Positions 1 to 17,906 of a stretch of 23,805 nucleotides of DNA are shown here, one piece after another. The DNA comes from a virus, in IMG/VR virus record IMGVR_UViG_3300034062_004163, positions 1-23,805 of that record, one strand, 5' to 3'. The notes below the pieces were generated by a model. It was not told the origin of the DNA, made no database searches, and saw only the letters and a list, made by a program, of their open reading frames with translations. The position numbers were made by a program, and so were the translations under genes. Numbering within the stretch: position 1 is the stretch's first letter; every line of letters starts with the position of its first letter.

Positions 1-1482
1 GCCACAGAAGACTACCAGCGTGTGATTGCTGGATTGAGACAACAAAAACAAAACCTTTCAAAAGAAGAACGTGACAGTGGTGCTGAAGCCGCCATCAACA
101 AACAAATTGATGCTGCAAGAATCCTGTTCAATGTGCAAAAGACCAGTCTAGAAAACAGTGTGGCCTTGAATGTCAAAGCACAAAGTGCGGAACAAGCACG
201 ATTGTTTGGTATAGCACGGATCACAGATCTACAACGAGAACTCAATGGTCTCACACAGCAAACAGCCAGCGTGTTCTTGCCTGAAGTGGCCCGGGCCTAT
301 TTGGAAATTGAAGCAGCAGCCCTGGCCAGTGCTGAAGCAGAAATTGCTGCTGAACAGGCTCGCAGAGGTGCCACTCTTAGTGCAGAAGAAATACAAAGTT
401 ATTATGCAGCCGCACGTGAAGGCATTGATCGGGTCAAAGCCAGCACACGTGAACTGATTGAAGAACAACGCAAATTTGAATTTGTGCAGTTTCAGAAGCG
501 AGAAGAGATTCGTCTCACAGATGAACTCATGCGCTTGCAAGATGAAATGGCCAAAACTGGCATGAGTGACATAGAACAAAAATACTATGACATTGCAGCC
601 GCTGCCAGAGACAGTGCCCGGGAAGCCATTCGTGCTGAAGAAGCACGTAGAGGCGAGAATTTGCCAATTGAAGAACAGAAAAAATATTATGATGAGGCCA
701 TCAAAGGCAGTGGCCGACTCACACGTCAACTGGAAGAAAACAACAAGAAAGCCAGATCATTTGCCACAGGATGGAAAAGAGCATTCAATGAATATTATGA
801 TGCAGCAACCAACGCTTCAAGCCGTGCTGAGAGCCTGTTTAGAAATGCCACACAAGGCATGGAAGATGCCATTGTAAATTTTGCCAAGACTGGCAAATTT
901 GAGTTCAAGAGTTTTGTTGCCAGCATCCTGGAAGACCTACTGCGATCACAAATCAAAGATGTCATTGCACAGACGTTTGGTGGTATTGGCGGTATGAAAA
1001 CAGGCGGCGGCGGCGGTGGCGGCGGTGGTGGCAATTTCTTAGGTGATCTCATTGGCAGCATTGGCAGTATATTCAGTGGTGGATCAAGCAACAACAGCAG
1101 AAGCAGTCCCAGCACTAGTGGTAGCAGCAGTGGTGGTGGTATACTCAGCGGCATTACCAAAGCCGTAGGTAGCATATTTGGTGGCGGCAGCAGCAGTGGC
1201 GGTGGTGGCATCTTAGAAACAATTGGTGGCGGTATCAAGAGCCTGTTCTCTGGATTCTTTGCCAATGGTGGCATGATACCACAAGGCCGATTTGGCATTG
1301 CCGGCGAAGCAGGTCCAGAACTGATTGGTGGACCTGCTAGTGTAACACCCATGGGCACCAATGTCACATACAACATCAATGCAGTGGACGCTGCCAGTTT
1401 CAAGGCAATGATAGCACGTGATCCAAGTTTCTTGTTTGCAGTCAGCGAGCAAGGTCGTAGATCACTACCTGGAGGAAGATAA
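1..1482 (+). CDS. Tail tape-measure protein, C-terminal part (5' truncated by window)
   Basis: The frame is open from base 1, so the gene starts upstream; 493 residues are visible. The first half (to about nt 750) is charged, Ala/Glu/Gln-rich and predicted helical/coiled coil. At nt 757-985 comes a stretch (GWKRAFNEYYDAA, then MEDAIVNFAKTGKFEFK, then SILEDLLRSQIK) that matches the C-terminal domain of lambda-type tape-measure proteins. It is followed by Gly/Ser low complexity (nt 990-1250, including ten consecutive Gly) and a terminal GIAGEAGPELI motif typical of this family. The protein would set tail length and line the tail tube. The stop overlaps the next ATG (TAATG). The family assignment is strong; the length of the full protein is unknown. 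Confidence 0.9.
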   Translation, partial: ATEDYQRVIAGLRQQKQNLSKEERDSGAEAAINKQIDAARILFNVQKTSLENSVALNVKAQSAEQARLFGIARITDLQRELNGLTQQTASVFLPEVARAYLEIEAAALASAEAEIAAEQARRGATLSAEEIQSYYAAAREGIDRVKASTRELIEEQRKFEFVQFQKREEIRLTDELMRLQDEMAKTGMSDIEQKYYDIAAAARDSAREAIRAEEARRGENLPIEEQKKYYDEAIKGSGRLTRQLEENNKKARSFATGWKRAFNEYYDAATNASSRAESLFRNATQGMEDAIVNFAKTGKFEFKSFVASILEDLLRSQIKDVIAQTFGGIGGMKTGGGGGGGGGGNFLGDLIGSIGSIFSGGSSNNSRSSPSTSGSSSGGGILSGITKAVGSIFGGGSSSGGGGILETIGGGIKSLFSGFFANGGMIPQGRFGIAGEAGPELIGGPASVTPMGTNVTYNINAVDAASFKAMIARDPSFLFAVSEQGRRSLPGGR

Positions 1483-2099
1483 TGACAACAGCATTTCAAT
1501 ATGTGTTTGACAACGCAGAATCAATCAGCATTGACACCAAACGCATTGTGGGCAGCACACTCACACGTGATCAAACTTTGAGAACAACCAGTCGTGGTGG
1601 TCAGACCTGGCGCTTTGATGTCAAACTGCCGGATGGCATACCTTGGAATCAAGCAAGACAATACATTGCAAAAATTGAAGCCCTGGACCGAACCACTGTG
1701 GGCACAGTGCAAATCAACAATGCTGGATACAATGATTGGTTGATACCTTATCAAGGCACAGCAGCCAACAGTGCTGCCATTGCTGCCAGCTGGGTGAATG
1801 GTGCCATGAGCATCACACTCACCAGCGGTCAAGCAGGATCAGGATTCAATTTCCGTGCAGGTGATATCATACAATTGGCCACAGGTCGTGTTTACAGGGT
1901 CACTGCTGATGTGGCCAGTGGCACCAACACTGTGCCTGTGCATAGACCAGTGCTGGATACCACAGGCTCTGGCACACTCAAGGTTGGTCCGGCAGTGACC
2001 TGGAGTGTGCTGTGCTATGAATTGCCAACCTGGACTATATTTGCAAGAGATCAAGTCAGCTGGTCAGGCAGTTTTATTTTTTATGAGAACATGGTATGA
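1482..2099 (+). CDS. Minor tail / distal tail protein
   Basis: This 205-aa protein lies directly after the tape measure, in the position of lambda M/L or a distal tail protein. The start is supported by GGAGGAAG a few bases upstream and by a TAATG overlap. It is a beta-rich protein without signal or membrane segment. The C-terminal half contains FRAGDIIQL, a VYRVTADV strand and the ending WTIFARDQVSWSGSFIFYE, a pattern I associate with siphovirus tail-tip proteins found next to the tape measure. Probably a structural component linking the tail tube to the tip complex. The exact equivalence to a lambda gene is not established. Confidence 0.7.
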   Translation: MTTAFQYVFDNAESISIDTKRIVGSTLTRDQTLRTTSRGGQTWRFDVKLPDGIPWNQARQYIAKIEALDRTTVGTVQINNAGYNDWLIPYQGTAANSAAIAASWVNGAMSITLTSGQAGSGFNFRAGDIIQLATGRVYRVTADVASGTNTVPVHRPVLDTTGSGTLKVGPAVTWSVLCYELPTWTIFARDQVSWSGSFIFYENMV

Positions 2100-2692
2100 G
2101 TTTAGATTTAAGCACTTATCCCAGTATAGCCACTGCACTGTTTGTGAAAATTGAGAGTGGCTACACCTCTCTAGGTGATTTGACCTTTAGCAGTTACTAT
2201 CGTCCGCTGACCATTGCGGGTGTGAGTTATACCGGACTGGGCAGTTTGATGACAGTGGGAGATACCACCAGCGAACTCCGACTCAGCAGCAGTGAAATCA
2301 ATGTGGGCATCAGTGGTATCAACACCACCAACATGAGCAATGTGTTGACCTACAATCTCAAAGGTGCTGAAGTGATTATATACCGTGGTATATTTGATGC
2401 TGTGACCAATACCTTGTTGGGCATAGCAGGTAATCCTGCAATCAAATTCAAAGGTATCATAAACAATTTTGGACTCAGTGAAGACTTTGAACCTGGTGGC
2501 AAAAACAGCACAGTCACAATCAACTTTGCTTGCACCAGTGAGATAGGCATGATTGAACGAAGAGTCACTGGGCGTAGAACCAATCCTGATGATCAGAAAA
2601 AATTCTACCCCACAGATGTCAGCATGGATCGGGTGCCCACGCTGGTAGATGCCAACTTCAATTTTGGCGCACCATTAAGGTTGGCAGCATGA
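2096..2692 (+). CDS. Tail-tip / baseplate hub-like protein
   Basis: A 198-aa protein translationally coupled by an ATGA overlap to the preceding gene. It starts MSLDLSTYPSIATALFVKIE and ends with TGRRTNPDDQKKFYPTDVSMDRVP followed by a short Ala/Leu tail. This ending, in which Arg/Asp-rich residues precede FYP.D, resembles DUF2163-like hub proteins and lambda L/K-region tail assembly proteins, which sit between the distal tail protein and the J-like host specificity protein. The position (tape measure, distal tail, this protein, J-like) agrees. No catalytic motif or peptidase signature (Cys/His NlpC type) is seen, so it is more likely structural than the lambda K hydrolase. Confidence 0.6.
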   Translation: MSLDLSTYPSIATALFVKIESGYTSLGDLTFSSYYRPLTIAGVSYTGLGSLMTVGDTTSELRLSSSEINVGISGINTTNMSNVLTYNLKGAEVIIYRGIFDAVTNTLLGIAGNPAIKFKGIINNFGLSEDFEPGGKNSTVTINFACTSEIGMIERRVTGRRTNPDDQKKFYPTDVSMDRVPTLVDANFNFGAPLRLAA

Positions 2693-3471
2693 GTTTCTTT
2701 GATGACTTGATCAGTGGAGTAGGCAATTTTCTCAGTGGTGGCAACAGCATTGGTGGCAGTCTTGCCAAAATTGCACTGTTGGGACTGGGGCTAAACAAAG
2801 TCAGCAACAGCATCAACAGTGAAAAGAACAGTCAGTTGCAGACAGTGCGTCCATACAAAGCACGAGTTGATCAGGGAGTGCGATTGCAAGTGCCACCAGC
2901 AGCTGATCAAAAGATTCCTGTGTGTTATGGTAGATCTACCCTGGGAGGTATCATCAATGATGCCAGACTCAGCAGTGACAACCGCAACATGTTTTATGTG
3001 CTGACCATTAGTGAACGCACAGGCACATTGTTGAGCACAGGCAATCCCAGTGCTTATGTGTTCAATGACGTGTATCTCAATGACGAACGTATCATATTTG
3101 AAAGCAATGGTATAGACTGTGCTTACAGCATTGACCGCGATGGCAACAAAAATTTTGCCTATGCAGGTGTGGTAGAAGTGTATTGCTATGCTGGTGACAG
3201 CGACACACCACAGGTGCCAGAATACTACACCAATGGCAGCTTAGATCCAGCCTATGACATTGTGCCTGGCTGGACCACGTTGCACATGATGGAAGACTTG
3301 ATCTTTGCAGTGGTCAAGATCACGTATTCACCAGAATCTGGACTCACGCAAATACCCAACATGCGATTCAACATCACCAATTCAATGACCTTGCCTGGTG
3401 ATGTCATACGTGACTACATGGTCAGCACACGCTATGGTTGTGCTATACCTGCAGGAGATATCAACGTATGA
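2689..3471 (+). CDS. Tail-tip host-specificity protein, J-like, N-terminal part
   Basis: A 260-aa protein starting by ATGA overlap with AAGG upstream. A Gly/Ser-rich N-terminal segment (residues 1-40) is followed by a domain with KIPVCYGRSTLGGIINDARL, VFNDVYLNDERI and, near the end, TLPGDVIRDYMVSTRYGCAI. These match the first half of phage J-like tail-tip proteins of marine phages and the lambda J family, in which TRYG.GIP precedes a second half. Here the reading frame stops right after PAGDINV. The expected continuation (YTINGVV..., scaffold of the second half) is found about 3 kb downstream at 6503. The protein is therefore a split N-terminal part, or was cut by insertion. Known J proteins recognise the host receptor and form the tail tip. 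Confidence 0.75.
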   Translation: MSFFDDLISGVGNFLSGGNSIGGSLAKIALLGLGLNKVSNSINSEKNSQLQTVRPYKARVDQGVRLQVPPAADQKIPVCYGRSTLGGIINDARLSSDNRNMFYVLTISERTGTLLSTGNPSAYVFNDVYLNDERIIFESNGIDCAYSIDRDGNKNFAYAGVVEVYCYAGDSDTPQVPEYYTNGSLDPAYDIVPGWTTLHMMEDLIFAVVKITYSPESGLTQIPNMRFNITNSMTLPGDVIRDYMVSTRYGCAIPAGDINV

Positions 3472-3893
3472 TGAGTCTCAGTGATCTAAACACATTTTCA
3501 GCAGCCAATGTCACCTACACAGCCAACGTGGTCACCATTGATCGGTCAGTGGGCAATGTGTTTCAACACGTGCCAGTGGCCTGGAACACAGTGAGAACAT
3601 TTGGTGCATTGACTGGCAATGGTATCACTTTGACTTTTGCAGCCAACACAGCCACCACTGTGAATTTTACATTTCCCAGCAGCAGTTTTGCCACACACAC
3701 TCTAAGCATAACCACTGCAGCCAACACTGCTGTGGTGTCTGGTATCTTGGACATCCTTGACTACAATGCTGCTCGTGCCCAGGTCAATCCCACAGTGGGC
3801 GAAGCAGGCAATGTGACCTACACAGTGACCACAATCAACACCAACGATCTTGCAGGAAATATTGCTGTGGATTATCGCGGAGTGCCTGTGTAA
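3468..3893 (+). CDS. Beta-rich structural protein inserted in the J-like region (141 aa)
   Basis: The start is at 3468 rather than further upstream because ATG overlaps the previous stop (ATGATGA) and AGGAG lies at 3453. The N-terminus, MMSLSDLNTFSAANVTYTANVV, reads like the continuation of the J-like protein (SLxxLNxxxxxxVxY after the TRYG segment) but in a different frame. The rest is rich in Asn, Thr and Val with repeated NV dipeptides, with no Cys, no membrane segment and no catalytic signature. The next gene overlaps it by TAATG. Possibly an adhesin-like beta module or a J remnant fused to one. I do not recognise the family beyond the first residues. Confidence 0.65.
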   Translation: MMSLSDLNTFSAANVTYTANVVTIDRSVGNVFQHVPVAWNTVRTFGALTGNGITLTFAANTATTVNFTFPSSSFATHTLSITTAANTAVVSGILDILDYNAARAQVNPTVGEAGNVTYTVTTINTNDLAGNIAVDYRGVPV

Positions 3894-6493
3894 TGGACAG
3901 TCTGGCACAGCTGAATACAGTGGCCATTGAAAATGTCAGTTTTAGTGCTGTGGCCAATGTGGTTCAGCAAGAAGACACTGCATACACTGTGCGTGTGCCC
4001 AGCGTGGATCTAGTCAAAACACTGGGCAACATACAGAGCAACACTGTGATCACGCATAGTTTCGACTGGGGCAACATACCCAGTGCCTATCAGAATGTCA
4101 CTGTGAGTCTGAACAATCCAGGTGCTGTGTCCAATGTCAGCAGCACCTATGCTGGCAATGTGCTCACTATCACAGGCATTAAATCTGCACAAGATTATCT
4201 TGGCACAGTGGCCACAGTAGGAACTTCTTTAGGGTTTGATAACACTGGTGAATTTTCACACAACAGCAATGTGAGATTGACAGGCAACATCTTTAATTCA
4301 GGTGTGTTTTTATACACAGTGAATGTGAACTTGGTCAATGTGCCTGAATTGTTTCCAGTGGGCAATCCTGGCAACTTGGTCTACAACTTTTTTGGCAATA
4401 ACGTAAATGAACAAGATTCAATCGTGACACCTGTGTCACCAGGTGTGCTGATCAACACCAACAACCCTGCTGGTCTTTACACCATGACCATTAGCACTCA
4501 GGACAATGGCAATGCAGTGACCTTGACCAGCACAGGACCCACTTTAACAACCAATACTTTTTCAGCAGTGGGCAATGTGGGCACATTGACCTTGCAAGGT
4601 AATATTGTGCCACTCAATCAACACCTGGCCAATCTTGCATTTGTCAAAAGCAATGCTGCGGTTGCCAATGTGCCGTCAATTGGGCGAGGTGTAAGAAATC
4701 TCACCTACAGTCTTACCAATCCAGCCAATGTTGTGTCGCCAGATGGCACAAGAACACAAACCTATTTCAGTAATTTTGCACAGACTCAATTTGCCAACAC
4801 TGCTGGCAATCTCAAATATCGTGCGCAGCCTGGCAATGTGGCTGTGGTCAATCTGTTTCAATCAGGCTCACGAGACACTGGTGTAAACACCCTGGCCTAT
4901 GTGGGATACCATGCAGGCACTCTTGATCCACACTGGGCTTATGCACATCGTGAAAACAGCAATGTGGGCAATGCCAATGTTTTGCTGACCATGATAGGCC
5001 TGCAGGCCAACAGTGCCAGTGTGCTCAGTGGACCACAGCATGTGATTGGTGTCAGCAACAATGCCACAGTGGTGCGAAGTGCAGTGAGTGATTTGATGGG
5101 CGCCAACATAGGCAATCAAAGCAACACAACAGCACGACTTTTTGTCACTTCCAGTAGCCCTGGTAGTTTTTATGGCAATACCACTGCCCGCACAGTTGGT
5201 GCTGATGCAGGTGATCAGTTCAACAGTGTGATTTATAGCAATGTTGCCATGGGCTCAAGCACCTTGACTATACAACCAAAACTCACATTTAATGGCACAA
5301 CATTCCCAGTAGTTGTTAGTCATATTCTTGCAGGTCCAAGCGGTCTTGGTGTTTTTCAACGACAATCAAAACCCAACAATGACATCCAGGACTCAGCAAA
5401 CTTGACCTTTTCAGGCAGCACCTACAAAGGAATACATTGGTGGTATCCGCAATCAACATCAGTGTTCAACCCACCAGCGGTGTCTACCACAACCAGTTTT
5501 GTCAACTGCCATTATGATCTGACTACCAGTAACTGGCCACATCCAATCATGGTCAATGGGTTCACAAAAATTATTGATCCCCTGATTGGACAAACTGGTC
5601 AACTGCGAACTGTGCCCAATTTTTCTGGAACAAGCCTGGCAGTGTGGCGCGGACAAACAGACATACCTGCCAGCGATCTTGCACAAAGTCAACAAATCAT
5701 AACCATGCAAGTGGTCTTGACCGGCACCACTGCATACACTGACAACCTGGTCAGCACCAAGGTCACTGCCGCTGGCTACGCATTCACAGTCACACAAAAT
5801 TTTGCTGGTGCAACACCTCTTGGTGCGTTTATGACTCCTTATCTTGGTGACAATCCCATATGGCCCAATGCCTGGTTGTTGCGAGGACAAACATACGATT
5901 TCAATGTGGACATGACTGCCTCAGGAGCCAATGTGTATATTACCACTGCATTAGGTGGCGGTGTTGTAACACCTTCTGGTGTGACCAACAACAACATCAA
6001 ACTGGGCACAATCTCTTTTACTCCCACGTCAAGCACTCCTGACATTGTGTATTTTCGTGGTGGTGGCAGCAGTCCTGTCAGTGGTGTTGATCTAGAAAAC
6101 AGTCAAGGTGGAGCATTCTATATATTCAGTGACACCAGCAGCACCAGTGGTAGATGGACCACAGTTCCTGGTGCATTTGACATTATGAAAAAAAGCGACA
6201 CTGAGATCCTGATGGTGTATACCAAATACACAGGCACAGTGTCCAATGGTGCCACGCAGAGTGCTGGACTGTATTACAGAATAATCACCTGGAATGGTAG
6301 TAATCTCACTTTTGGCACACAGGTGCAAGTTCAGAACCCTGACATCACAGGCAATATATATGGCATCAGCATGACTGCTAGTTCAACCAATCTCAATGGC
6401 TACACCTATGTGCTGTGTGTGATTGCACCAGCACAAGGTGCACAGAGTGCTTTTACCACTGTCACACCCATTGTGACCGGATTCAAATTTTAA
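3893..6493 (+). CDS. Large beta-rich fibre/adhesin-like protein inserted in the J-like region (866 aa)
   Basis: Starts at the TAATG overlap. Its first residues, MDSLAQLNTVAIENVSFSA, resemble the start of the preceding protein. Asn/Thr/Ser/Val/Gly-rich beta structure with many NV pairs runs through most of the length. Around nt 5878-6060 a segment LLRGQTYDFNVDMTASGANV, then a TT.LGGG...G and an SSTPD..YFRGGG, resembles a beta-sandwich domain common in cyanophage/marine phage structural proteins. Residues in the last third (TTVPGAFDIMKKSDTEILMVYTK) are less repetitive. Two TAA codons separate it from the next gene, in the same frame. Likely a tail-tip appendage or receptor-binding component; function not established. 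Confidence 0.65.
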   Translation: MDSLAQLNTVAIENVSFSAVANVVQQEDTAYTVRVPSVDLVKTLGNIQSNTVITHSFDWGNIPSAYQNVTVSLNNPGAVSNVSSTYAGNVLTITGIKSAQDYLGTVATVGTSLGFDNTGEFSHNSNVRLTGNIFNSGVFLYTVNVNLVNVPELFPVGNPGNLVYNFFGNNVNEQDSIVTPVSPGVLINTNNPAGLYTMTISTQDNGNAVTLTSTGPTLTTNTFSAVGNVGTLTLQGNIVPLNQHLANLAFVKSNAAVANVPSIGRGVRNLTYSLTNPANVVSPDGTRTQTYFSNFAQTQFANTAGNLKYRAQPGNVAVVNLFQSGSRDTGVNTLAYVGYHAGTLDPHWAYAHRENSNVGNANVLLTMIGLQANSASVLSGPQHVIGVSNNATVVRSAVSDLMGANIGNQSNTTARLFVTSSSPGSFYGNTTARTVGADAGDQFNSVIYSNVAMGSSTLTIQPKLTFNGTTFPVVVSHILAGPSGLGVFQRQSKPNNDIQDSANLTFSGSTYKGIHWWYPQSTSVFNPPAVSTTTSFVNCHYDLTTSNWPHPIMVNGFTKIIDPLIGQTGQLRTVPNFSGTSLAVWRGQTDIPASDLAQSQQIITMQVVLTGTTAYTDNLVSTKVTAAGYAFTVTQNFAGATPLGAFMTPYLGDNPIWPNAWLLRGQTYDFNVDMTASGANVYITTALGGGVVTPSGVTNNNIKLGTISFTPTSSTPDIVYFRGGGSSPVSGVDLENSQGGAFYIFSDTSSTSGRWTTVPGAFDIMKKSDTEILMVYTKYTGTVSNGATQSAGLYYRIITWNGSNLTFGTQVQVQNPDITGNIYGISMTASSTNLNGYTYVLCVIAPAQGAQSAFTTVTPIVTGFKF

Positions 6494-6502
6494 GGATAAC
6501 CC

Positions 6503-8122
6503 ATGCCAACCAGCACACTTGCTAGAAAATACACCATCAACGGTGTGGTCAACACAGAAAATCCTGTGATGGAAAACCTTGATGGTATCTGTCGCAGTGC
6601 CGGCAGTTTTCTCACCTATGACGTGCATCAAGGCCTGTGGAGTGTGGTCATAAACACCACTGCCAGCAGTGTCTACAGTTTTGATGACTCAAACATTGTG
6701 GGTCCCATACAGGTCAGCACCACCAGTCTGTTTGATCTTTACAATGAAGTAGAAGTAGAATTTCCCTTGTTGGACACAGCAGACAAAACTGATTTTGTTA
6801 GACTAGAGATCCCTGATGCAAATCGTGCACCATACGAACAAGACAATCAATTGAAAATGACCTTGAACTTTGCCAGTGAGCCAGTGCAGGCCAGTTTGTT
6901 GGGACGCATTGAATTGTTGCAAAGCAGACTGGACAAAGTTGTAACATTTGAAAGTGACTATTCAGCCTTGCAATTGAACGCAGGTGATGTGATTGATGTG
7001 ACCAACACCTTGTATGGTTTTTCAGCCAAAACTTTTAGAATCATAACCATTAGAGAACTGGATGCTGATGACGGCAGCATACGATGTGAGATCACAGCAT
7101 TAGAATATGATGCCACAATCTACAGTGCAGCCAATCTCACCAGAACTGTGCGCAGTGACCTCACTGGCATACAGACTCTGGGTGCCATAGGAATTCCGGC
7201 CACTCCCACTTTTGTTAAATCAGAAGCCAGTGCAAGACCACAGATCAATGTTGTGACCACTGTGCCCACAGGAGTTATTGAAGGTGTGGAATGCTGGATC
7301 AGCAGTGATGGCACCAACTATCAATTGCGTAATACCATCAAGAACGCTGACACAGTGCTCACACCTGGTGCCAGTTTGACATTTGAATTTGATGATCAGG
7401 CAGCAGGCAATGTGTATGCCAAAACACGTGGCACCAATTATTCAGTTGCAGGACCATTCTCAAATGTGGGCAACACCACTTACTCACCACAACAGATCAC
7501 AGATGCCATAGGCAACAACACCAGTATTCTTGACAGCGGTGGCGGGACCATTGCCCTTGCTGCTGCATTGCCCTCTCTGATCAGTGCTCTTAATGGTTTG
7601 TTTTCGGGCAACATTTCAGCAGGCACTCCTGGTGGTAACATTGCCGCAGCCATGAGTGGTCAAGGATTCATGGTCAGTGTGGATGCTGGTCAGACCACGG
7701 TGGGCAATATTGCACAGGCCGCTGGCAATGCCAATCCAGGCTCACCAGGCGTTTATACCACTCTAGGGTCCTCTACATTTTCCCCCAACTACACTGCCAC
7801 TTACAAATACGATGTTATTTTTGATCAGAACACCTCTGGTGCTGAAGGTGGACGTGGTGCTTATTGGAGCGAAACCGAAGATGTAGTTCGTGTTCGTGCC
7901 GAGATTTTTGATATCACTGGCAACGCCAACACCTTCATTGCAGGTGAAGCCAGTGGTGCCCGTGGTGCCTGGTTTTGGACTGATTATCCTTTAACAGGCC
8001 AGGTTACTTTGAATGTTGGCGACACTTACAAAATAGAATTTGGGGCATTGTTCTACACAGAGTCTGCCAATACCACACCAGGTAATATGACTTTTGGATG
8101 GAATGTATACACCACAATATGA
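6503..8122 (+). CDS. Tail-tip host-specificity protein, J-like, C-terminal part
   Basis: AAGGA lies nine bases before the ATG. A 539-aa protein beginning MPTSTLARKYTINGVVNT and continuing with LDGICRSAGSFLTYDVHQGL, WSVVIN, YNEVEVEFP and AGDVIDVTN...FRIITI is the recognisable second half of J-like tail proteins, which is normally fused to the half ending in GDINV (3471). The C-terminal third (from about nt 7190) has fibronectin-like strands, then Gly/Ala-rich low complexity and a short beta tip. Because the N-terminal half is encoded separately and 3 kb away, this polypeptide probably works with that partner, but the assembly is inference. The start is unambiguous; no upstream in-frame extension exists because of two TAA codons. 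Confidence 0.75.
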   Translation: MPTSTLARKYTINGVVNTENPVMENLDGICRSAGSFLTYDVHQGLWSVVINTTASSVYSFDDSNIVGPIQVSTTSLFDLYNEVEVEFPLLDTADKTDFVRLEIPDANRAPYEQDNQLKMTLNFASEPVQASLLGRIELLQSRLDKVVTFESDYSALQLNAGDVIDVTNTLYGFSAKTFRIITIRELDADDGSIRCEITALEYDATIYSAANLTRTVRSDLTGIQTLGAIGIPATPTFVKSEASARPQINVVTTVPTGVIEGVECWISSDGTNYQLRNTIKNADTVLTPGASLTFEFDDQAAGNVYAKTRGTNYSVAGPFSNVGNTTYSPQQITDAIGNNTSILDSGGGTIALAAALPSLISALNGLFSGNISAGTPGGNIAAAMSGQGFMVSVDAGQTTVGNIAQAAGNANPGSPGVYTTLGSSTFSPNYTATYKYDVIFDQNTSGAEGGRGAYWSETEDVVRVRAEIFDITGNANTFIAGEASGARGAWFWTDYPLTGQVTLNVGDTYKIEFGALFYTESANTTPGNMTFGWNVYTTI

Positions 8123-8343
8123 TCTCACACAACGCTATGATAACAAAACCTCTCAAACGATTTGCTCGTGTAAACAACCTTGTTTGCACTCACCTGGTTG
8201 AAACACAACGCCAAGACTGGTGTGAAACACAACTGTGGGAAAACATTCCTGGTGTATGGGAAGACGTTACACACACCCAGGTCAACAGTGAATGGACAAA
8301 AGACGCCCAAACAGGTGCTTGGTCGCCCCCTCCTGGTAAATAA
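8119..8343 (+). CDS. Small protein of unknown function (74 aa)
   Basis: Start chosen at 8119, where ATG overlaps the previous stop (ATGA); an upstream in-frame ATG at 8098 lies inside the preceding gene. The protein has a basic N-terminus (TKPLKRFARVNN) and a Trp-rich second half (DWCETQLWENIPGVWEDV, SEWTK, GAWSPPPGK). Sits between tail-tip and fibre genes, so a structural or chaperone role is possible. No motif with a known function is seen. Confidence 0.55.
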   Translation: MISHNAMITKPLKRFARVNNLVCTHLVETQRQDWCETQLWENIPGVWEDVTHTQVNSEWTKDAQTGAWSPPPGK

Positions 8344-8393
8344 CATATTGCTGGTGCCTCAGTGCCAGCAGTATCGCCCTAAGGAGAGCACAC

Positions 8394-8912
8394 ATGGCCG
8401 GAGTATTAGACTTCCAACAATATGTTGGCGGTGCGGATCAAATCAAATGCGAACAATGGTTCCCATCAAATAGACGCACTTTAATATACAACTTTCAACA
8501 AAACATCACCGGCTGGACATTCACAGCAGACTTTCAAACCATAGTGGTAGACACTGTGAGTTTTGCTCGCTACACCGGTCAACCCAACTTTGCCAACTCA
8601 ACGGTGATTGGCTCATTTGCCAAACAAGAAATGAGCACATTTGCTGCCGGCATCTATGTGCCCACAGTGCTGAATGTTGCCACAGGCACTGTGCGAGTGT
8701 ATCAACCTGATGCCATGTATACCGGACCTATAATTCCTGATGCAAGAAAGAATGTGCCCATCACAGTTTTTGCATTGACCTGGACTGATGCAAACTCTCC
8801 CATTACCAATGTAAACACACATCGTTTTGCATTGGTGCAATGTTGGGAACCTGATGTGGATCCTGGTGATCCCACCTTGCTCACAACTTATATTCCATTG
8901 GTGGTGGCATAA
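8394..8912 (+). CDS. Virion-associated protein of unknown function (172 aa)
   Basis: The strongest ribosome-binding site of the tail operon, AAGGAGA at 8380, lies eight bases from the ATG, after a 50-nt gap. The sequence, with segments such as FNFQQNITGWTFTADFQT and Cys-containing QIKCEQWF near residue 20, is beta-rich, lacks signal peptide and membrane segments, and ends hydrophobic (YIPLVVA). It ends in TAATG overlap with the long fibre gene, suggesting co-translation with that fibre. I associate the pattern with proteins next to marine phage tail fibres but cannot name a function. The strong site suggests high copy number. Confidence 0.6.
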   Translation: MAGVLDFQQYVGGADQIKCEQWFPSNRRTLIYNFQQNITGWTFTADFQTIVVDTVSFARYTGQPNFANSTVIGSFAKQEMSTFAAGIYVPTVLNVATGTVRVYQPDAMYTGPIIPDARKNVPITVFALTWTDANSPITNVNTHRFALVQCWEPDVDPGDPTLLTTYIPLVVA

Positions 8913-11900
8913 TGAGTTACGAAGTCATAATCACAGAAGAAGTGGCTGCCAATGTAACAGTGGCCACCACAACATATCCCATCACCATTGAATACAATGC
9001 AGTGATTGAACAAGCTGGAGCCAATGTCACTTACGGCAATGTCAATGTGGCGGCTTATTTGGCCAGCAATACCAGTTTGCCCATACTCACCACTGCCAAT
9101 GTGCAAGCTGGATATTTCCTTGGCAATGGTTCACAGTTGACTGGTATCATCGCCACATCAACTTATGGCAATGCCAATGTGGCAGCCAATCTAGCAGCGT
9201 TTGGATCAAATCCTATTTCGACCACAGGCAATATCACAGGTGGCAACATCCTGGGTGGTGCCAATGTCAATGCCACACTACATTCAGGCACAACTGTGAG
9301 TGTGACAGGCAATATCACAGGTTCCAACGTGATAGGAACACATTTTGGATCAGGTGCTGCTCTCAGCAGTATCACAGGTGCCAATGTCACAGGCACTGTG
9401 GCCAATGCCACATTTGCCACTTCGGCGGCCACTGCCACGTCAGCCACAACTGCTGCCACTGCCAACTCAGTAGCAGGTGCCAATGTGAGTGGCACCGTGG
9501 CCAATGCCACATTCGCCACATCAGCAGCCACTGCCACGTCAGCCACAACTGCTGCCACTGCCAACTCAGTAGCAGGTGCTAATGTCACAGGCACAGTGGC
9601 CAATGCCACATTTGCCACTTCGGCAGCCTCAGCAACCAGTGCCACAACTGCTGGCACTGTGACATCAAATGCACAGGCCAACATTACCTCAGTGGGTGTG
9701 TTGACTAGTCTCAGTGCTAGTGGCAATATCACAGGCAATTATTTCCTGGGCAATGGATCACAACTCACAGGCTTGCCAGCCACATACGGCAATGCCAATG
9801 TGGCAGCCAACCTGGCTGCATTTGGCACCAATCCAATATCAACCACAGGCAATGTCACTGCTGGTTATGTGATTGGCAATGGCAGTTTGTTAAACAACAT
9901 CACCGGTGCCAATGTTACAGGAACTGTGGCCAATGCCACCTTTGCCACTAGTGCAGGCACAGCTACTTCAGCCACAACTGCTACTTCAGCCACAACTGCT
10001 GGCACAGTGACCACAGCAGCTCAGGCCAATATCACCTCAGTTGGCACATTGACCAATCTTGATGTGAGTGGCAACGCTGTGATAGGCGGCAATCTCACTG
10101 TAAATGGCGACACTGTTTATACCAATGTGACCAGTTTCAACATAGAAGATCCTGTGCTGGAAATGGGTCGTGGTGCCAACAATGCACCCCTGGTCAGCAA
10201 TGATGGCAAAGATCGTGGCGAACGTTTGTGGTATTACTCTGGCAGTGAAAAAAGTGCATTCACAGGTTATGACAACAGTGCTGGCAAATTGATCCTGGCA
10301 GCAGATGTGACCATTGCCAGCGAAGTGGTCACAGTGGTTGATTATGGAACCACAGTGGTAGGCAATTTGCAAGGCACCACAGTCAGTGTCACAGGCAATG
10401 TTACTGCGGCCAACATCACAGGCAATGGATCTGGACTATCAAGTATAACAGGTGCCAATGTCACAGGCACAGTGGCCAATGCCACATTTGCCACTTCAGC
10501 AGGTAGTGCCACAAGTGCTACCACAGCAGGCACAGTGACCTCAAATGCACAGGCCAATATCACTTCAGTGGGCACACTCACAAGTTTGAGCGTGACAGGC
10601 AACATTGCCACTTCAGGCAACTTTGTGGGCAATGGCTCAGCACTCACAGGTATCACAGCCAGCACAGCCAATGCTGCCAGTTTCTTGATTGATCCCACAG
10701 CACCCGGTGTGAATGTCAGTGTCAGCAACGCATTCAGCCTCTTGAACTTTCCACAAGGTGGATATATTGGCTGGTCAGGAGATGGAGTAGACCCCAACAC
10801 TGGTGGCAGTTTAGACATTGTTCCTGGCGGCAATGTGGCCAATGCATATGCGAGCCTGACATTTCTCAACCCTGCCAATGTGTTTGCCAATCCCATCAGC
10901 ACTGTGAATGTCAGCAATATTGGCATGGTGTTCAAGTATGATTTCCTGGGCACATTTGGTGGAACCCGAACACTACAGCTGGATGGTTCAGGCATGAGCT
11001 TAGACACCACATTCAGTGCAACAGGCAACATAACCACCGCAGCCAATTTTGTAGGCAATGGTGCAGCACTCACAGGCATTGTTTCAAGTTATGGCAATGC
11101 CAATGTGGCTGCCAATTTGGCAGCATTTGGGTCAAATCCCATCAGCACCACAGGCAACATCACCAGTGGCAACAGCAATGTGACCAACACTTTGTATGCA
11201 AGCAATATCACAGGTGCTGCTGGTCAGAATGTCACAATCACAGCAGACGGCACTGGTGACATACATCTTGACGCTGACAGTATCAGAGTTGGCGACAACA
11301 ATTCACCTGTGACCATTGTCACACATGGCACAGGCAACCTGATCCTACGCACACACGAAGGTGATGCCTCGCAAGGCAATATCACCTTGGTCAATGGGGC
11401 AAACGGCAACATTCAATTGAATCCCAATGGCACTGGTCAGGTCACTACCACTACAATTTCAGCCACAGGCAATGTGACCGGCAACTACTTCCTGGGCAAT
11501 GGCTCAGCACTCACAGGCATCACAGCCAGCACAGCCAATTCAGCCACATTTTTAACTTCCAGCAGCAATGCTGCTGCTCATGTCAGCGTTGACAGTGCCA
11601 ACACACAAACTGTGTTGCCTGGCAATGGTAGAATTGGGTATGGTGGCGATGGTGTAGATCCCAACACATTTGGCAGTGTTGATATCATACCAGCACAAAC
11701 AAACTTGGCCAATGCTTATTCAGCATTGACATTTGTAAATCTAGCAAACTTTGCAGCCAATCCAATCAACACTGTGAATGTCAGCAACACTGCTGCATTC
11801 ATGACTTATGATGTAATTGGCACAGCCAAAACATTAACTGTGAGCTCTGCAGGTGTTGACATCAACACCACATTGTCAGCCACCGGCAACATAACTACTG

Positions 11901-12595
11901 CTGGCAACTTTGTGGGCAATGGTGCAGCACTTACAGGCATTGTGAGCACATATGGCAATGCCAATGTCACAACACTGCTGGGTGCATTTGGATCAAACAC
12001 CATATCAACCACTGGCAATGTGACCAGCGGTAATTTACAAACTACAAGTCTCACAGGCACTACAATTTCAGTCAGCAGCACTGTGATTGGTGGCAACTTG
12101 CAAACACCAGGTTTTGCCTCAGCAGTGGGCAACATCATTGGTGGCAATGTGCTGTCAGGTGGTGCGATCACTGCCACTGCTGGTATATCTACAGGAACCA
12201 CAGTAAGTGCAGTAGGCAACATCATTGGCGGTAATATTACCACCGGTGGAGCAGTAAGCACAAGTGGACGTGTGATTGGCGCAAACTACACAGAAACTGT
12301 GCATGCAATTGGCAGCAGTGGTGGCACTATCACTCCCAACATCAGTCTGGGTAGCATACAAAGTATCACATTGACCAGCAACATGACATTCAGTTCAATC
12401 ACAAATATCAATGCAGGACAGAGTTTCACATTCATTGTCACACAAGATGGCACAGGTTCAAGAACACTGACCAGCACCATGAAGTTTGCTGGCAACAGCC
12501 GAACACTCAGCACAGCAGCCAATAGCATAGACATCATATCAGTGTTCTACAACGGCAGCACTTATTTTGCAAGTTTAACCAAGGGCTACGCATAA
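8912..12595 (+). CDS. Long repetitive tail fibre protein (1227 aa)
   Basis: Starts at TAATG. The sequence is built from repeated motifs: GNGS.LTGI, YGNANVAANLAAFG, GANVTGTVANATFATSA and SATTAGTV, typical of trimeric phage fibres. At nt 10110-10290 lies a domain with EDPVLEMG...SNDGKDRGERLWYY and FTGYDNSAGKL, which I recognise as recurring in cyanophage and marine myophage fibres. Two related modules of about 185 residues occur (nt 10616-11172 and 11479-12030). The C-terminal end (nt 12280-12592, GSIQSITLTSNMTFS then GSRTLTSTM) looks like a receptor-binding tip. No Cys-rich or catalytic motif. Its length and repeats indicate an elongated, recombination-prone fibre. Confidence 0.85.
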   Translation: MSYEVIITEEVAANVTVATTTYPITIEYNAVIEQAGANVTYGNVNVAAYLASNTSLPILTTANVQAGYFLGNGSQLTGIIATSTYGNANVAANLAAFGSNPISTTGNITGGNILGGANVNATLHSGTTVSVTGNITGSNVIGTHFGSGAALSSITGANVTGTVANATFATSAATATSATTAATANSVAGANVSGTVANATFATSAATATSATTAATANSVAGANVTGTVANATFATSAASATSATTAGTVTSNAQANITSVGVLTSLSASGNITGNYFLGNGSQLTGLPATYGNANVAANLAAFGTNPISTTGNVTAGYVIGNGSLLNNITGANVTGTVANATFATSAGTATSATTATSATTAGTVTTAAQANITSVGTLTNLDVSGNAVIGGNLTVNGDTVYTNVTSFNIEDPVLEMGRGANNAPLVSNDGKDRGERLWYYSGSEKSAFTGYDNSAGKLILAADVTIASEVVTVVDYGTTVVGNLQGTTVSVTGNVTAANITGNGSGLSSITGANVTGTVANATFATSAGSATSATTAGTVTSNAQANITSVGTLTSLSVTGNIATSGNFVGNGSALTGITASTANAASFLIDPTAPGVNVSVSNAFSLLNFPQGGYIGWSGDGVDPNTGGSLDIVPGGNVANAYASLTFLNPANVFANPISTVNVSNIGMVFKYDFLGTFGGTRTLQLDGSGMSLDTTFSATGNITTAANFVGNGAALTGIVSSYGNANVAANLAAFGSNPISTTGNITSGNSNVTNTLYASNITGAAGQNVTITADGTGDIHLDADSIRVGDNNSPVTIVTHGTGNLILRTHEGDASQGNITLVNGANGNIQLNPNGTGQVTTTTISATGNVTGNYFLGNGSALTGITASTANSATFLTSSSNAAAHVSVDSANTQTVLPGNGRIGYGGDGVDPNTFGSVDIIPAQTNLANAYSALTFVNLANFAANPINTVNVSNTAAFMTYDVIGTAKTLTVSSAGVDINTTLSATGNITTAGNFVGNGAALTGIVSTYGNANVTTLLGAFGSNTISTTGNVTSGNLQTTSLTGTTISVSSTVIGGNLQTPGFASAVGNIIGGNVLSGGAITATAGISTGTTVSAVGNIIGGNITTGGAVSTSGRVIGANYTETVHAIGSSGGTITPNISLGSIQSITLTSNMTFSSITNINAGQSFTFIVTQDGTGSRTLTSTMKFAGNSRTLSTAANSIDIISVFYNGSTYFASLTKGYA
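9377..9574. repeat. Two tandem 99-nt repeats in the fibre gene
   Basis: Units 9377-9475 and 9476-9574 each encode 33 residues (GANVTGTVANATFATSA then ATATSATTAATANSVA; one Thr/Ser change), followed by a diverged third unit from 9575. They keep the frame. Copy number could change by recombination or slippage. Confidence 0.8.
10616..12030. repeat. Duplicated ~185-residue module in the fibre gene
   Basis: Module at 10616-11172 and its diverged copy at 11479-12030 share GNGSALTGITASTAN, GDGVDPNT.GS.DI.P, NAY..LTF.N, NP I.TVNVSN, and end with YGNANV..... A unit duplication in a fibre; about 300 nt of different sequence lies between copies. Confidence 0.7.
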
Positions 12596-13338
12596 TGTTT
12601 GCAGCACGTGGCGGATTTTTTGCACAACCCCTGGGACCTGTGCCGGTATATAGATCAGATGCATATGCTGCTTATTTGGAATTGGCTGTGCCATTTGATC
12701 ATGTGAATCAATTCAACGATGTCACACCCGCCATCAAAGGATCTGGATCACCAGCCAGCAAAACCACTGGTGCCAACAGCACAATGGATGCTGGTCAGGT
12801 CAAATGGACCAGCAGTCCCGACTATGAGAAAAGTGTGAAGACTATTGCCACTGGTGGTGTGGCAGCAATGACATACACCATGCCCACAGGTCTGCCCACT
12901 TGTGCTTCAGGTTCAAATGACTATGTGGTAGAAGTCTGGGCCTATGCCAATGATTCTACCACCAATGCCAACTGGGCTTTGAGTTCAGCTGATTCTGGTG
13001 GTCGTTGGTTGTTTGGCGTCAACAGTGGCAGCAGTTTTACTTTTGCTAGTGAAAACAATATTGGAATTGGCAGCGGCTGGCATCATATTGCCATTGTGTT
13101 AGATAATGGAGTCAAAAGATTCTACTATGATGGCATTTACAAAGGTGTGTGGTCCAGCAGCAACACAGGATTCAGTGTGTTGAATGTTGGTCAATTCAAT
13201 TCAGGTGATAACAATGACTACCGGGGTTGGCTGCAAGATCTAAGAGTATACAGCGGAACTGACAAAGGTTACACTGGCACTGATAGCAGTAACGCAAATT
13301 TTACCTTGCCCTCAAGTATGATACAGAGCTATTCATGA
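12595..13338 (+). CDS. LamG-like concanavalin-type lectin domain protein (247 aa)
   Basis: Overlaps the fibre gene end by TAATG with AAGGG upstream. After an N-terminal region of about 90 residues, motifs of a LamG/concanavalin A-like beta-sandwich appear: VVEVWAYAND, WLFGVNSGSSF, GWHHIAIVLDNGVKRFYYDG (around residues 162-180), and YRGWLQDLRVYSG (around residues 209-221). In phages this fold binds carbohydrate or sits at fibre tips. Position after the long fibre suggests it attaches to, or follows, the fibre as a receptor-binding accessory. No signal peptide. Fold assignment is good; the ligand is unknown. Confidence 0.8.
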   Translation: MFAARGGFFAQPLGPVPVYRSDAYAAYLELAVPFDHVNQFNDVTPAIKGSGSPASKTTGANSTMDAGQVKWTSSPDYEKSVKTIATGGVAAMTYTMPTGLPTCASGSNDYVVEVWAYANDSTTNANWALSSADSGGRWLFGVNSGSSFTFASENNIGIGSGWHHIAIVLDNGVKRFYYDGIYKGVWSSSNTGFSVLNVGQFNSGDNNDYRGWLQDLRVYSGTDKGYTGTDSSNANFTLPSSMIQSYS

Positions 13339-14822: not shown

Positions 14823-14912
14823 GTTTGCCAAAACGCTAGGAAAAAAACAGGTATTTTGTTAAACTTACTAAATAAACTATATGGCAATAGTATCCGGCAG
14901 CAAAACAAATCA

Positions 14913-14944
14913 CAAACAAACAAACAAACAAACAAACAAACAAA
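14913..14944. repeat. Tetranucleotide microsatellite (CAAA)8
   Basis: Eight exact tandem copies of CAAA. Slippage could change length; it lies outside a convincing gene, so an effect would be on promoter or RNA geometry. Unusual for a compact phage genome. Confidence 0.9.
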
Positions 14945-16506: not shown

Positions 16507-17247
16507 ATGCATCAAAACTTCCGGGTGGGACGCTACACTGTGTATGGCGGCATGCAACTGCGTGACAATCCTTGTGCGGTGTTTGTGGACAATCCGCTAT
16601 TCAGTGAAATGATCTTTCGCAATGCTGTGAATCCCACAGGAGGCAAAACCTGGCAACGCTTTGTGCGGCAAACAGGACAGGCCAACTGTTGTTTTGTGCC
16701 TGAACAACAGGGCACCGGGCAGGACTACGACAGACTCAACACCTACTATCGCAGAAAAGCCGGACAAGACTTTGATCAATTGTGGGGTGGGTGGCGGCCA
16801 GTTGAATCTAGACCAGACCTGCCTTGGTTGGTGTGTGAGCCTAGAGATGAAATCTTGCGCTACTGGTATAACACCACACTGAGCGAATGGCGCACACAGA
16901 TTGCTGACGCCCTGGGTGCGGAGCCTTATCATGTGAGACCCAAGCCCATTCGACGTGAGCGAAGCAATGGCACAGTGCCACGTGTGATACACATGATGGC
17001 TGAATATCGTGGAGTTATCACTGCACACTCAGTCAGTGCCATAGATGCCATCCTGGCTGGACGACCGGCTGTGATTTGGGGACAAGATCCAACCCTGGGC
17101 TGTGGCACACCATTTCAACACTGGGAAGCGGATCACTCAGTGAGAATACCCAGCCTGGATCAGGTGCAGTCAGCAGCCTGCACCTGGGCCGCCACCACCT
17201 ACAGCAGTTTAGACACAGAAAGGGCAGTGCAATGCGTTATGAGGTAA
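16507..17247 (+). CDS. Glycosyltransferase-like protein, GT-B type (246 aa)
   Basis: The 16507 start fits just after the stop at 16502 (an in-frame ATG at 16486 is an alternative, overlapping the preceding gene). Early residues: MHQNFRVGRYTVYGGMQLRDNP. In the last third, PRVIHMMAEYRGVITAHSVS continues as AIDAILAGRPAVIWGQDP and C.TPF...W. The pattern (VIT..S..AIDAIL.GRP.V..G) is that of GT-B/capsule-type glycosyltransferases acting with nucleotide sugars. No signal peptide or membrane segment. The next gene (17232) begins inside its end. Likely modifies a phage or host glycan; target unknown. Confidence 0.55.
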   Translation: MHQNFRVGRYTVYGGMQLRDNPCAVFVDNPLFSEMIFRNAVNPTGGKTWQRFVRQTGQANCCFVPEQQGTGQDYDRLNTYYRRKAGQDFDQLWGGWRPVESRPDLPWLVCEPRDEILRYWYNTTLSEWRTQIADALGAEPYHVRPKPIRRERSNGTVPRVIHMMAEYRGVITAHSVSAIDAILAGRPAVIWGQDPTLGCGTPFQHWEADHSVRIPSLDQVQSAACTWAATTYSSLDTERAVQCVMR

Positions 17248-17906
17248 TCACCAGTTGCAACAGCAACTTATGGGCCGAGTATGCCCAACGAAGCATACCA
17301 GGTTGGCAATATCAGCCCAGAATATACTGGGAATCAGATGCAGACTGGCAGGATCCGCGTTGGGACCAACTGCGAGCACAGGCTGAACCAGCAGAAACTC
17401 CAAGACTCCATCATCAATACAGAAGATTCACCTGGAAAGTGCAGGCACAGATACATGCCATTAGAAACAGTTCAGCAGACTATGTGATTTGGTTGGATGC
17501 TGATGTGGTGCAAACTCAAGAGATCACACCAGATCAACTGCAGACTCTTATGCCGTCAGCAGACCATGTGGCCACATTTTTGAGTCGTCAGCCCTGGATG
17601 TATGCCGAAACAGGTTGGATTGCCTACAACCTGGCACACCCTGACACCAGGCCATTCATCAACGCACTAGAAGAGATTTATCTCAGCAGAAGAATATTTG
17701 ATCTTGAACAATGGCACGATGCCTTTGTGTGGGACCATGTGCGGCAAGCAACCACCACACCCATGCGCAACATACTGCCCAGGCCTCGCACAGGTGATCC
17801 ATTTGGCCAAAGCGATCTTGGCAGCCACTTTGCTCATCACAAAGGCCCACGCAAAGCCAACATCAAAGATAATACTCCAGTATTACCCAAAGACCCTACA
17901 GCATAG
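17232..17906 (+). CDS. Phage glycosyltransferase, GT-A-like (224 aa)
   Basis: Start 17232 (ATG after AAGGG), overlapping the preceding gene by 16 nt; a longer frame upstream is an extension without support. Begins MRYEVITSCNSNLWAEYAQR. After FTWKVQAQIHAI the strand DYVIWLDADVVQTQE gives the DxD-type metal/nucleotide-sugar motif, followed by AETGWIAYNLAHPDTRPFIN, FDLEQWHDAFVWDHVR and the end motif GSHFAHHKGPRKAN. I recognise this arrangement as a glycosyltransferase family frequent in marine T4-like and other phages. Two possible alternative 3' RNA structures overlap its end (17871-17921). Substrate unknown; possibly phage DNA or surface glycosylation. Confidence 0.7.
   Translation: MRYEVITSCNSNLWAEYAQRSIPGWQYQPRIYWESDADWQDPRWDQLRAQAEPAETPRLHHQYRRFTWKVQAQIHAIRNSSADYVIWLDADVVQTQEITPDQLQTLMPSADHVATFLSRQPWMYAETGWIAYNLAHPDTRPFINALEEIYLSRRIFDLEQWHDAFVWDHVRQATTTPMRNILPRPRTGDPFGQSDLGSHFAHHKGPRKANIKDNTPVLPKDPTA

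Follow-up and report, generated by a model that had tools for sequence, protein, structure and literature searches.

A tail-tip hub gene of the T5 pb3/lambda gpJ family divided around variable, adhesin-like genes in an uncultured phage

How does a phage keep a working tail tip when the gene for its hub is interrupted by about 3 kb of other coding sequence? The question is raised by a stretch of viral DNA of 23,805 nucleotides (nt) (IMG/VR record IMGVR_UViG_3300034062_004163, positions 1 to 23,805; hereafter the window), in which a J-like hub protein is not encoded as a single polypeptide running from the HDII-insertion through HDIV: it meets a stop codon at 3469-3471 and resumes in a separate gene from 6503. 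An earlier note on this DNA had described an N-terminal part (J-N), a C-terminal part (J-C) with a ribosome-binding site of its own, and two open reading frames (ORFs) of 141 and 866 amino acids (aa) between them, and all of these genes are found where it placed them. The locus is likely to encode a naturally split hub of the T5 pb3/lambda gpJ family, produced by gene fission and carrying in its break exchangeable adhesins that dock via a segment derived from the hub. Its features, with the basis for each, are as follows.

2689..3471, + strand: J-N, the N-terminal part of the J/pb3 hub protein, 260 aa (aligns with the intact J of phage P19250A and of the relative L012; J-N hidden Markov model over 142 loci)
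3454..3473, + strand: J-N/ORF2 stop/start overlap, with GGAG at 3454-3457, a TGA stop at 3469-3471 and tandem ATG at 3468/3471 (sequence)
3468..3893, + strand: ORF2, 141 aa, a J-linker segment (first ~18 aa) and a single beta domain (linker motif; hhalign; conserved in relatives)
3879..3895, + strand: ORF2/ORF3 overlap, with GGAG at 3879-3882 and a TAA stop at 3891-3893 that shares a base with the ORF3 ATG at 3893-3895 (sequence)
3893..6493, + strand: ORF3, 866 aa, a J-linker-like N-terminus, a conserved beta domain and a variable beta-rich body; probable adhesin (linker motif at position 1; insert conservation pattern; domains of homologues)
6492..6505, + strand: J-C ribosome-binding site AAGGA and ATG start (sequence; the same in the relative L006)
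6503..8122, + strand: J-C, 539 aa, the second linker half, the remaining hub domains and the C-terminal tail of the J/pb3 hub protein (PF13550, E 7e-6, above cut-off; T5 pb3 profile match; P19250A J)

The split belongs to the phage and not to the assembly. Contigs from other metagenome records (L001/L011, L003 and L004) run across the junctions with 99.8-99.98% identity, and the layout is kept in L006 and L007 (67-68% identical in J-N) and in L010 (54%), with the same gene order and the same kind of stop/start overlaps as in the window. These independent contigs and divergent relatives rule out an assembly or sequencing error, a possibility that the earlier note had itself raised. When codon positions were compared across J-N, ORF2, ORF3 and J-C, the differences were concentrated at third positions, demonstrating that ORF2, ORF3 and J-C evolve as coding sequence. 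A second, intact J was not found in this record.

That the two halves belong to one hub protein, as the earlier note had proposed, is supported by several lines of comparison. The window J-C passes the Pfam cut-off for PF13550 (E 7e-6), and a J-C profile that includes it aligns to residues 525-717 of T5 pb3 (E 2.5e-9). A full-length J profile aligns part of J-N plus the linker to pb3 403-721 (E 3e-19), placing the linker at about pb3 480-520, and gives in addition a weak FNIII match (E 0.22). In the relative L080, J-N and J-C match successive parts of a single PHROG family, phrog_5616, at 26-210 and 293-500, so that descent of the 3' half from an unrelated family does not fit. When both halves were searched by tblastn against annotated phages, they led to Methylophilaceae phage P19250A (KX815270), whose single 1,099-aa “host specificity protein J” contains both of them about 70 nt apart, and in a closer relative, L012, they share one ORF of 1,262 aa. 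The AlphaFold model of this intact L012 hub matches the folds of T5 pb3 (E 5.5e-25) and lambda gpJ (E 1.6e-24). Both intact proteins belong to the same family as the window J, with a similar gene order, both halves recognisable and the same linker; unlike the window J, each is one polypeptide with a linker of about 23 aa and no insert. Among more distant cultured homologues (HTVC111P, CRP-811, CRP-406, CRP-6, DSL-LC06, V6Aob and Kolga), J is a single annotated gene in all.

A survey of relatives places the window in a wider pattern. Profiles of J-N and J-C were used to classify 142 loci, which had been collected by J motifs and include some contigs under more than one locus id, so that the proportions given here are not prevalences. 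Three forms were found at one and the same site. In form I (65 loci), one ORF encodes the whole of J, and the profile ends lie 63-81 nt (a linker of 21-27 aa) apart; the earlier note's statement that homologues form one polypeptide with a short linker is therefore borne out, and the halves are far from always being separate genes. L134 and L138 also have a single-ORF J, beyond these 65; an in-frame insertion at the L134 linker was considered and dropped, as that linker is normal. In form II (eight loci: L015, L016, L018, L019, L094, L014, L028 and L093), J-N and J-C are separate, overlapping ORFs with no insert between them, and these loci are possible intermediates or relics of insert loss. 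In form III (43 loci), the same break holds an insert of 1.6-3.6 kb, always at the same site. The insert is a single gene of 558-1136 aa in form IIIa (L089 and L096 could not be cleanly delimited) and two genes, of 133-142 and 408-1041 aa, in form IIIb, the clade of the window, where ORF2 is conserved in L006, L007, L010, L017, L048, L091 and L107. The insert-free split forms and the sharing of this layout by a large set of relatives go beyond the earlier note, as does the piece of J found at the insert starts.

In a tree built from J-N plus J-C (87 rows, quick search, root not inferred), form IIIb is one branch (support 96), form II falls in two places, and a single clade for all insert-bearing J is not rejected (p-AU 0.39). 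On this unrooted tree, P19250A is placed outside the insert-bearing J, along with other intact J. The presence of an insert goes together with a shorter J-C: after the linker, its median length is 540 and 558 aa with an insert versus 842 and 986 aa in forms I and II, and J-C is below 650 aa in 26 of 27 insert-bearing loci but in only 2 of 38 others, as if the adhesin had moved.

How the break is organized can be read from the linker. Intact loci read ..IDTTSLTALNTYSAQSVxYTDEGTGAQTLANRYQING.., the linker after DIN(T) being TTSLTALNTYSNQTITYT... In split loci, J-N ends in IDT/DINV or alike and the next gene begins M(x)SLxxLNTYS..VxYTD, while J-C of form III begins MATSTLARRYxING. In the window, J-N ends ..RYGCAIPAGDINV* (AGDINV), immediately ahead of the linker helix; the first 18 residues of the linker open ORF2, in the -1 frame relative to J-N, as MSLSDLNTFSAANVTYT.., and J-C opens with the second linker part, TSTLARKYTING (compare TSTMKRFEFNG in P19250A). 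These junctions show that the linker is shared out, its first half standing at the start of the insert protein and its second half at the start of J-C. The earlier note was wrong in having the continuation of J begin only at 6503: the first half of the linker opens ORF2 directly after J-N, and only the second half waits for J-C. The motif is general among the inserts. Using a weight matrix built from 47 intact linkers with BLOSUM pseudocounts, the best match is N-terminal in 41 of 42 distinct insert proteins, the sole exception (L089) having had its start wrongly picked, and 30 of the 42 beat 200 shuffles of themselves. A first, strict matrix without substitution pseudocounts missed the motif (13 of 57 best matches N-terminal) and was replaced by this slightly shifted one. 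In the L012 model, the J-N domain (70-255, at a predicted local distance difference test score, pLDDT, of 81-96) gives way to a helix (257-267) and then a hairpin (271-274/280-283), the loop between being modelled with less certainty; mapped on this predicted structure, the break falls before the linker helix and the insert at the hairpin tip.

What, then, are the inserted proteins? Their first 100-200 aa are common to up to 20 other inserts and their bodies to few, giving the conserved attachment N-terminus and variable distal body seen in receptor-binding proteins. The ORF2 family is a full-length relative of the ORF3 N-terminal domain (hhalign 99.4%, E 2.3e-21) and is more weakly related to the IIIa insert N-terminus (97.2%, 4e-11); by these profile comparisons, ORF2 is a stand-alone copy of the docking domain at the start of ORF3. 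Matches of the IIIa N-terminus to designed repeat proteins and lectins in the PDB were weak or had no passing stretch and were not used. Recognised domains occur in the inserts of several relatives, namely LamG in L010 (just under the Pfam cut-off) and L080, FG-GAP in L085 and a glycine-rich domain in L104. Finally, in the close pairs L056/L048, L091/L107 and L062/L067, the flanks are about 88-97% identical and a segment inside the insert protein is replaced, which apparently reflects recombination or rapid change within the adhesin body. ORF2 and ORF3 have no relative among cultured phages. As a separate observation, Synechococcus cyanophages (S-RIM12 and others) have a 19-kb structural gene with which the L080 insert protein (7413-9989) shares a 230-aa region, its LamG domain included, at 30% identity.

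Taken together, these features suggest that the inserts are probably host-binding proteins. The main competitor keeps the split hub as it is and makes the inserts structural collar or side-fibre proteins, or tip chaperones, with no part in receptor binding; this is a minority possibility that deserves to be taken seriously, as the window ORF3 lacks a lectin-type domain and ORF2 offers merely a docking-type beta domain. Confinement of rapid change to the insert body and the lectin-type domains of several homologues are, however, typical of host-binding proteins. The earlier description of the gap as filled with fibre-like material accordingly holds for the relatives, whose inserts carry adhesion-type domains, and finds no such support in the 866-aa protein of the window itself.

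The break is also marked by translation signals. In the window, GGAG lies 10 nt upstream of the ORF2 start and likewise of the ORF3 start, and AAGGA lies 6 nt upstream of the J-C ATG. Across the survey, the J-N end carries a start codon with a Shine-Dalgarno (SD) sequence 4-14 nt away in 29 of 39 distinct split loci versus none of 47 intact ones. The next gene is in the -1 frame in most loci, in +1 in L031, L035, L092 and L104, and in frame 0 after an in-frame TAA in L046, L048, L049 and L056. This variable relation, together with the SD/start sites, agrees with termination-reinitiation rather than with a single frameshift mechanism. A J-N/insert fusion (or, in form II, a full-length J) might in addition arise if ribosomes underwent programmed -1 frameshifting where the genes overlap, and such a product is improbable: most junctions are indeed ATGA overlaps that place the following gene in the -1 frame, and the GGAG 10-11 nt upstream could also stimulate slippage, but inspection of the printed junctions by eye revealed no common slippery heptamer, the frame relation is inconstant between lineages, and the conserved feature is an overlapping start codon, in most cases with an SD sequence. 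Moreover, short ATGA-type overlaps also link other adjacent tail genes of the window.

It could further be supposed that ordinary tail-fibre genes landed in J and that the broken hub is decaying or redundant, the more so as other fibre-like genes lie downstream (8912-12595 and 12595-13338). This is very improbable, for J-N and J-C are open and conserved in dozens of divergent loci with third-position-biased change, the site is constant, nearly every insert carries the linker piece, and no second intact J was found in the record. Hardly credible at all is a mobile intron, intein or other selfish insertion with J restored by RNA or protein splicing, for which the roughly 3 kb inserted at a fixed site in a conserved gene might speak, in that an Rfam scan of the window gave no match and no intron, domain searches found no intein-like or nuclease domain in ORF2/ORF3, the parts have separate SD/start sites, the inserts are conserved as coding sequence, and a J-N/J-C product made by splicing would lack the first half of the linker, which sits on the inserts.

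The split hub with docked adhesins, as the favoured reading, would have arisen in the following way. An ancestral gene for a one-piece J would have gained a stop and an overlapping Shine-Dalgarno/start in the loop that leads into the helix of the linker, which connects the J-N domain to the remaining hub, and would thereby have been broken there; adhesin genes would have come to lie at the tip of the beta-hairpin after the helix. With the adhesin genes in this place, the insert protein would begin with the helix and first hairpin strand of J, and J-C with the second strand. The four coupled genes would be translated in order by termination-reinitiation, and J-N and J-C, as separate chains in the virion, would assemble non-covalently into a trimeric hub, so that the tip would be built from separate subunits, as the earlier note had suggested. 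The insert protein would dock by its hub-derived helix-strand, filling in by strand complementation for the missing piece of the hub wall, and present its variable body to the host surface for receptor binding. In the clade of the window, the docking/beta domain would have been duplicated as the small ORF2, perhaps an adaptor. It is tempting to go further, though somewhat short of calling it probable, and to suggest that the hub wall is completed in trans, the adhesin N-terminus supplying the helix and strand missing from the split hub; that the adhesins are exchangeable cartridges in a fixed tail-tip slot; that tip assembly may depend on adhesin loading; and that ORF2 is an adaptor or a second occupant of the slot.

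Several observations weigh against this account of a split hub with docked adhesins. No recognisable SD sequence is present at the break in 10 of the 39 split loci, and the insert starts were chosen partly by an L..LN pattern, though they coincide with the stop overlap. The association of a short J-C with an insert (26 to 1) rests on only about two independent changes on the tree. Finally, ORF3 of the window has no recognised domain in Pfam and PHROG profile searches, and its predicted structure (pLDDT 38.5) was unusable.

The surrounding genes, all upstream of J-N, are typical of the setting.

1..1482, + strand: tape-measure protein, C-terminal part (Pfam Tape_meas_lam_C, E 3e-23)
1482..2099, + strand: distal tail protein, lambda gpM position (phrog_1302 distal tail protein, E 4e-11)
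2096..2692, + strand: tail protein, gpL position (phrog_2048, E 3e-27)

The hub gene thus follows the tape measure, the distal tail protein and a gpL-like gene, as in siphophage J/pb3 loci. From its position and the lambda precedent, the gpL-position protein is probably the HDI hub domain (PMC10721106). There is no gene between the gpL-like gene and J in the window (2689-2692) or in intact L012 (at 9164), where lambda has K and I; in L012 J, a predicted helix (19-37) within the poorly modelled first 69 residues might serve as a plug.

Known hubs provide both a precedent and a contrast. T5 pb3 (PDB 7ZHJ; 8HQZ of DT57C), of the same family by profile and fold matches, is one chain carrying HDI to HDIV, whereas in the window the chain is interrupted where pb3 has residues ~480-520, and the interruption holds other genes. 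In the lambda tip, relative to pb3, HDI is in gpL, the plug in gpI and the remainder in gpJ, so that genes L-K-I-J occupy the place of the single pb3 gene, and the RcGTA hub/megatron (gp13/gp15) is divided likewise (PMC10721106, PMC11101478, PMC10038345). A hub already spread over several polypeptides is therefore not without precedent. The lambda and RcGTA division, however, lies upstream, inside the HDII-insertion, while in the window J itself is divided again, downstream, around a gap that, unlike theirs, holds variable adhesin-like genes beginning with a J segment; in lambda gpJ, the receptor-binding domain is the C-terminal part of the same chain. Searches of open-access papers turned up no case of J itself being divided around variable genes, which would make the window J a new variation on the split-hub theme of lambda and RcGTA. 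Two UniProt proteins of uncultured phages, A0A6J5L2G0 (257 aa, uncharacterised) and A0A6J7WLJ8 (570 aa, “Tip attachment protein J”), are 42% and 46% identical to intact L012 J and, by size and match, look like free-standing J-N and J-C that their annotation does not recognise as halves.

Other features of the window lie downstream of the tip. The fibre-like gene 8912-12595 (1227 aa) contains three copies of a 99-nt tandem repeat (87% matches) at 9375-9659, more GNV/ANV-rich repeats along its length and a weak match to a Chlorovirus glycoprotein repeat. The gene at 12595-13338 is a second adhesin-like gene with a LamG/ConA-like domain (PF13385, E 5e-8). A perfect (ACAA)8 microsatellite is found at 14912-14944, and 17076-17906 has a weak match to glycosyltransferase family 2, below the Pfam cut-off.

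Few parts of long-tailed phages are as conserved as the hub proteins, and the receptor-binding parts are usually carried on C-terminal fibres. A broad group of uncultured phages appears instead to have opened the hub itself and to have set variable adhesin genes in the break. The persistence of one-piece and split-without-insert forms among the relatives puts the order and effect of gene fission within reach of tests, and the division suggests why the halves of J escape annotation, one being labelled “uncharacterised” and the other “J”. Finally, the locus points to a natural split site and a docking segment in the siphophage hub.

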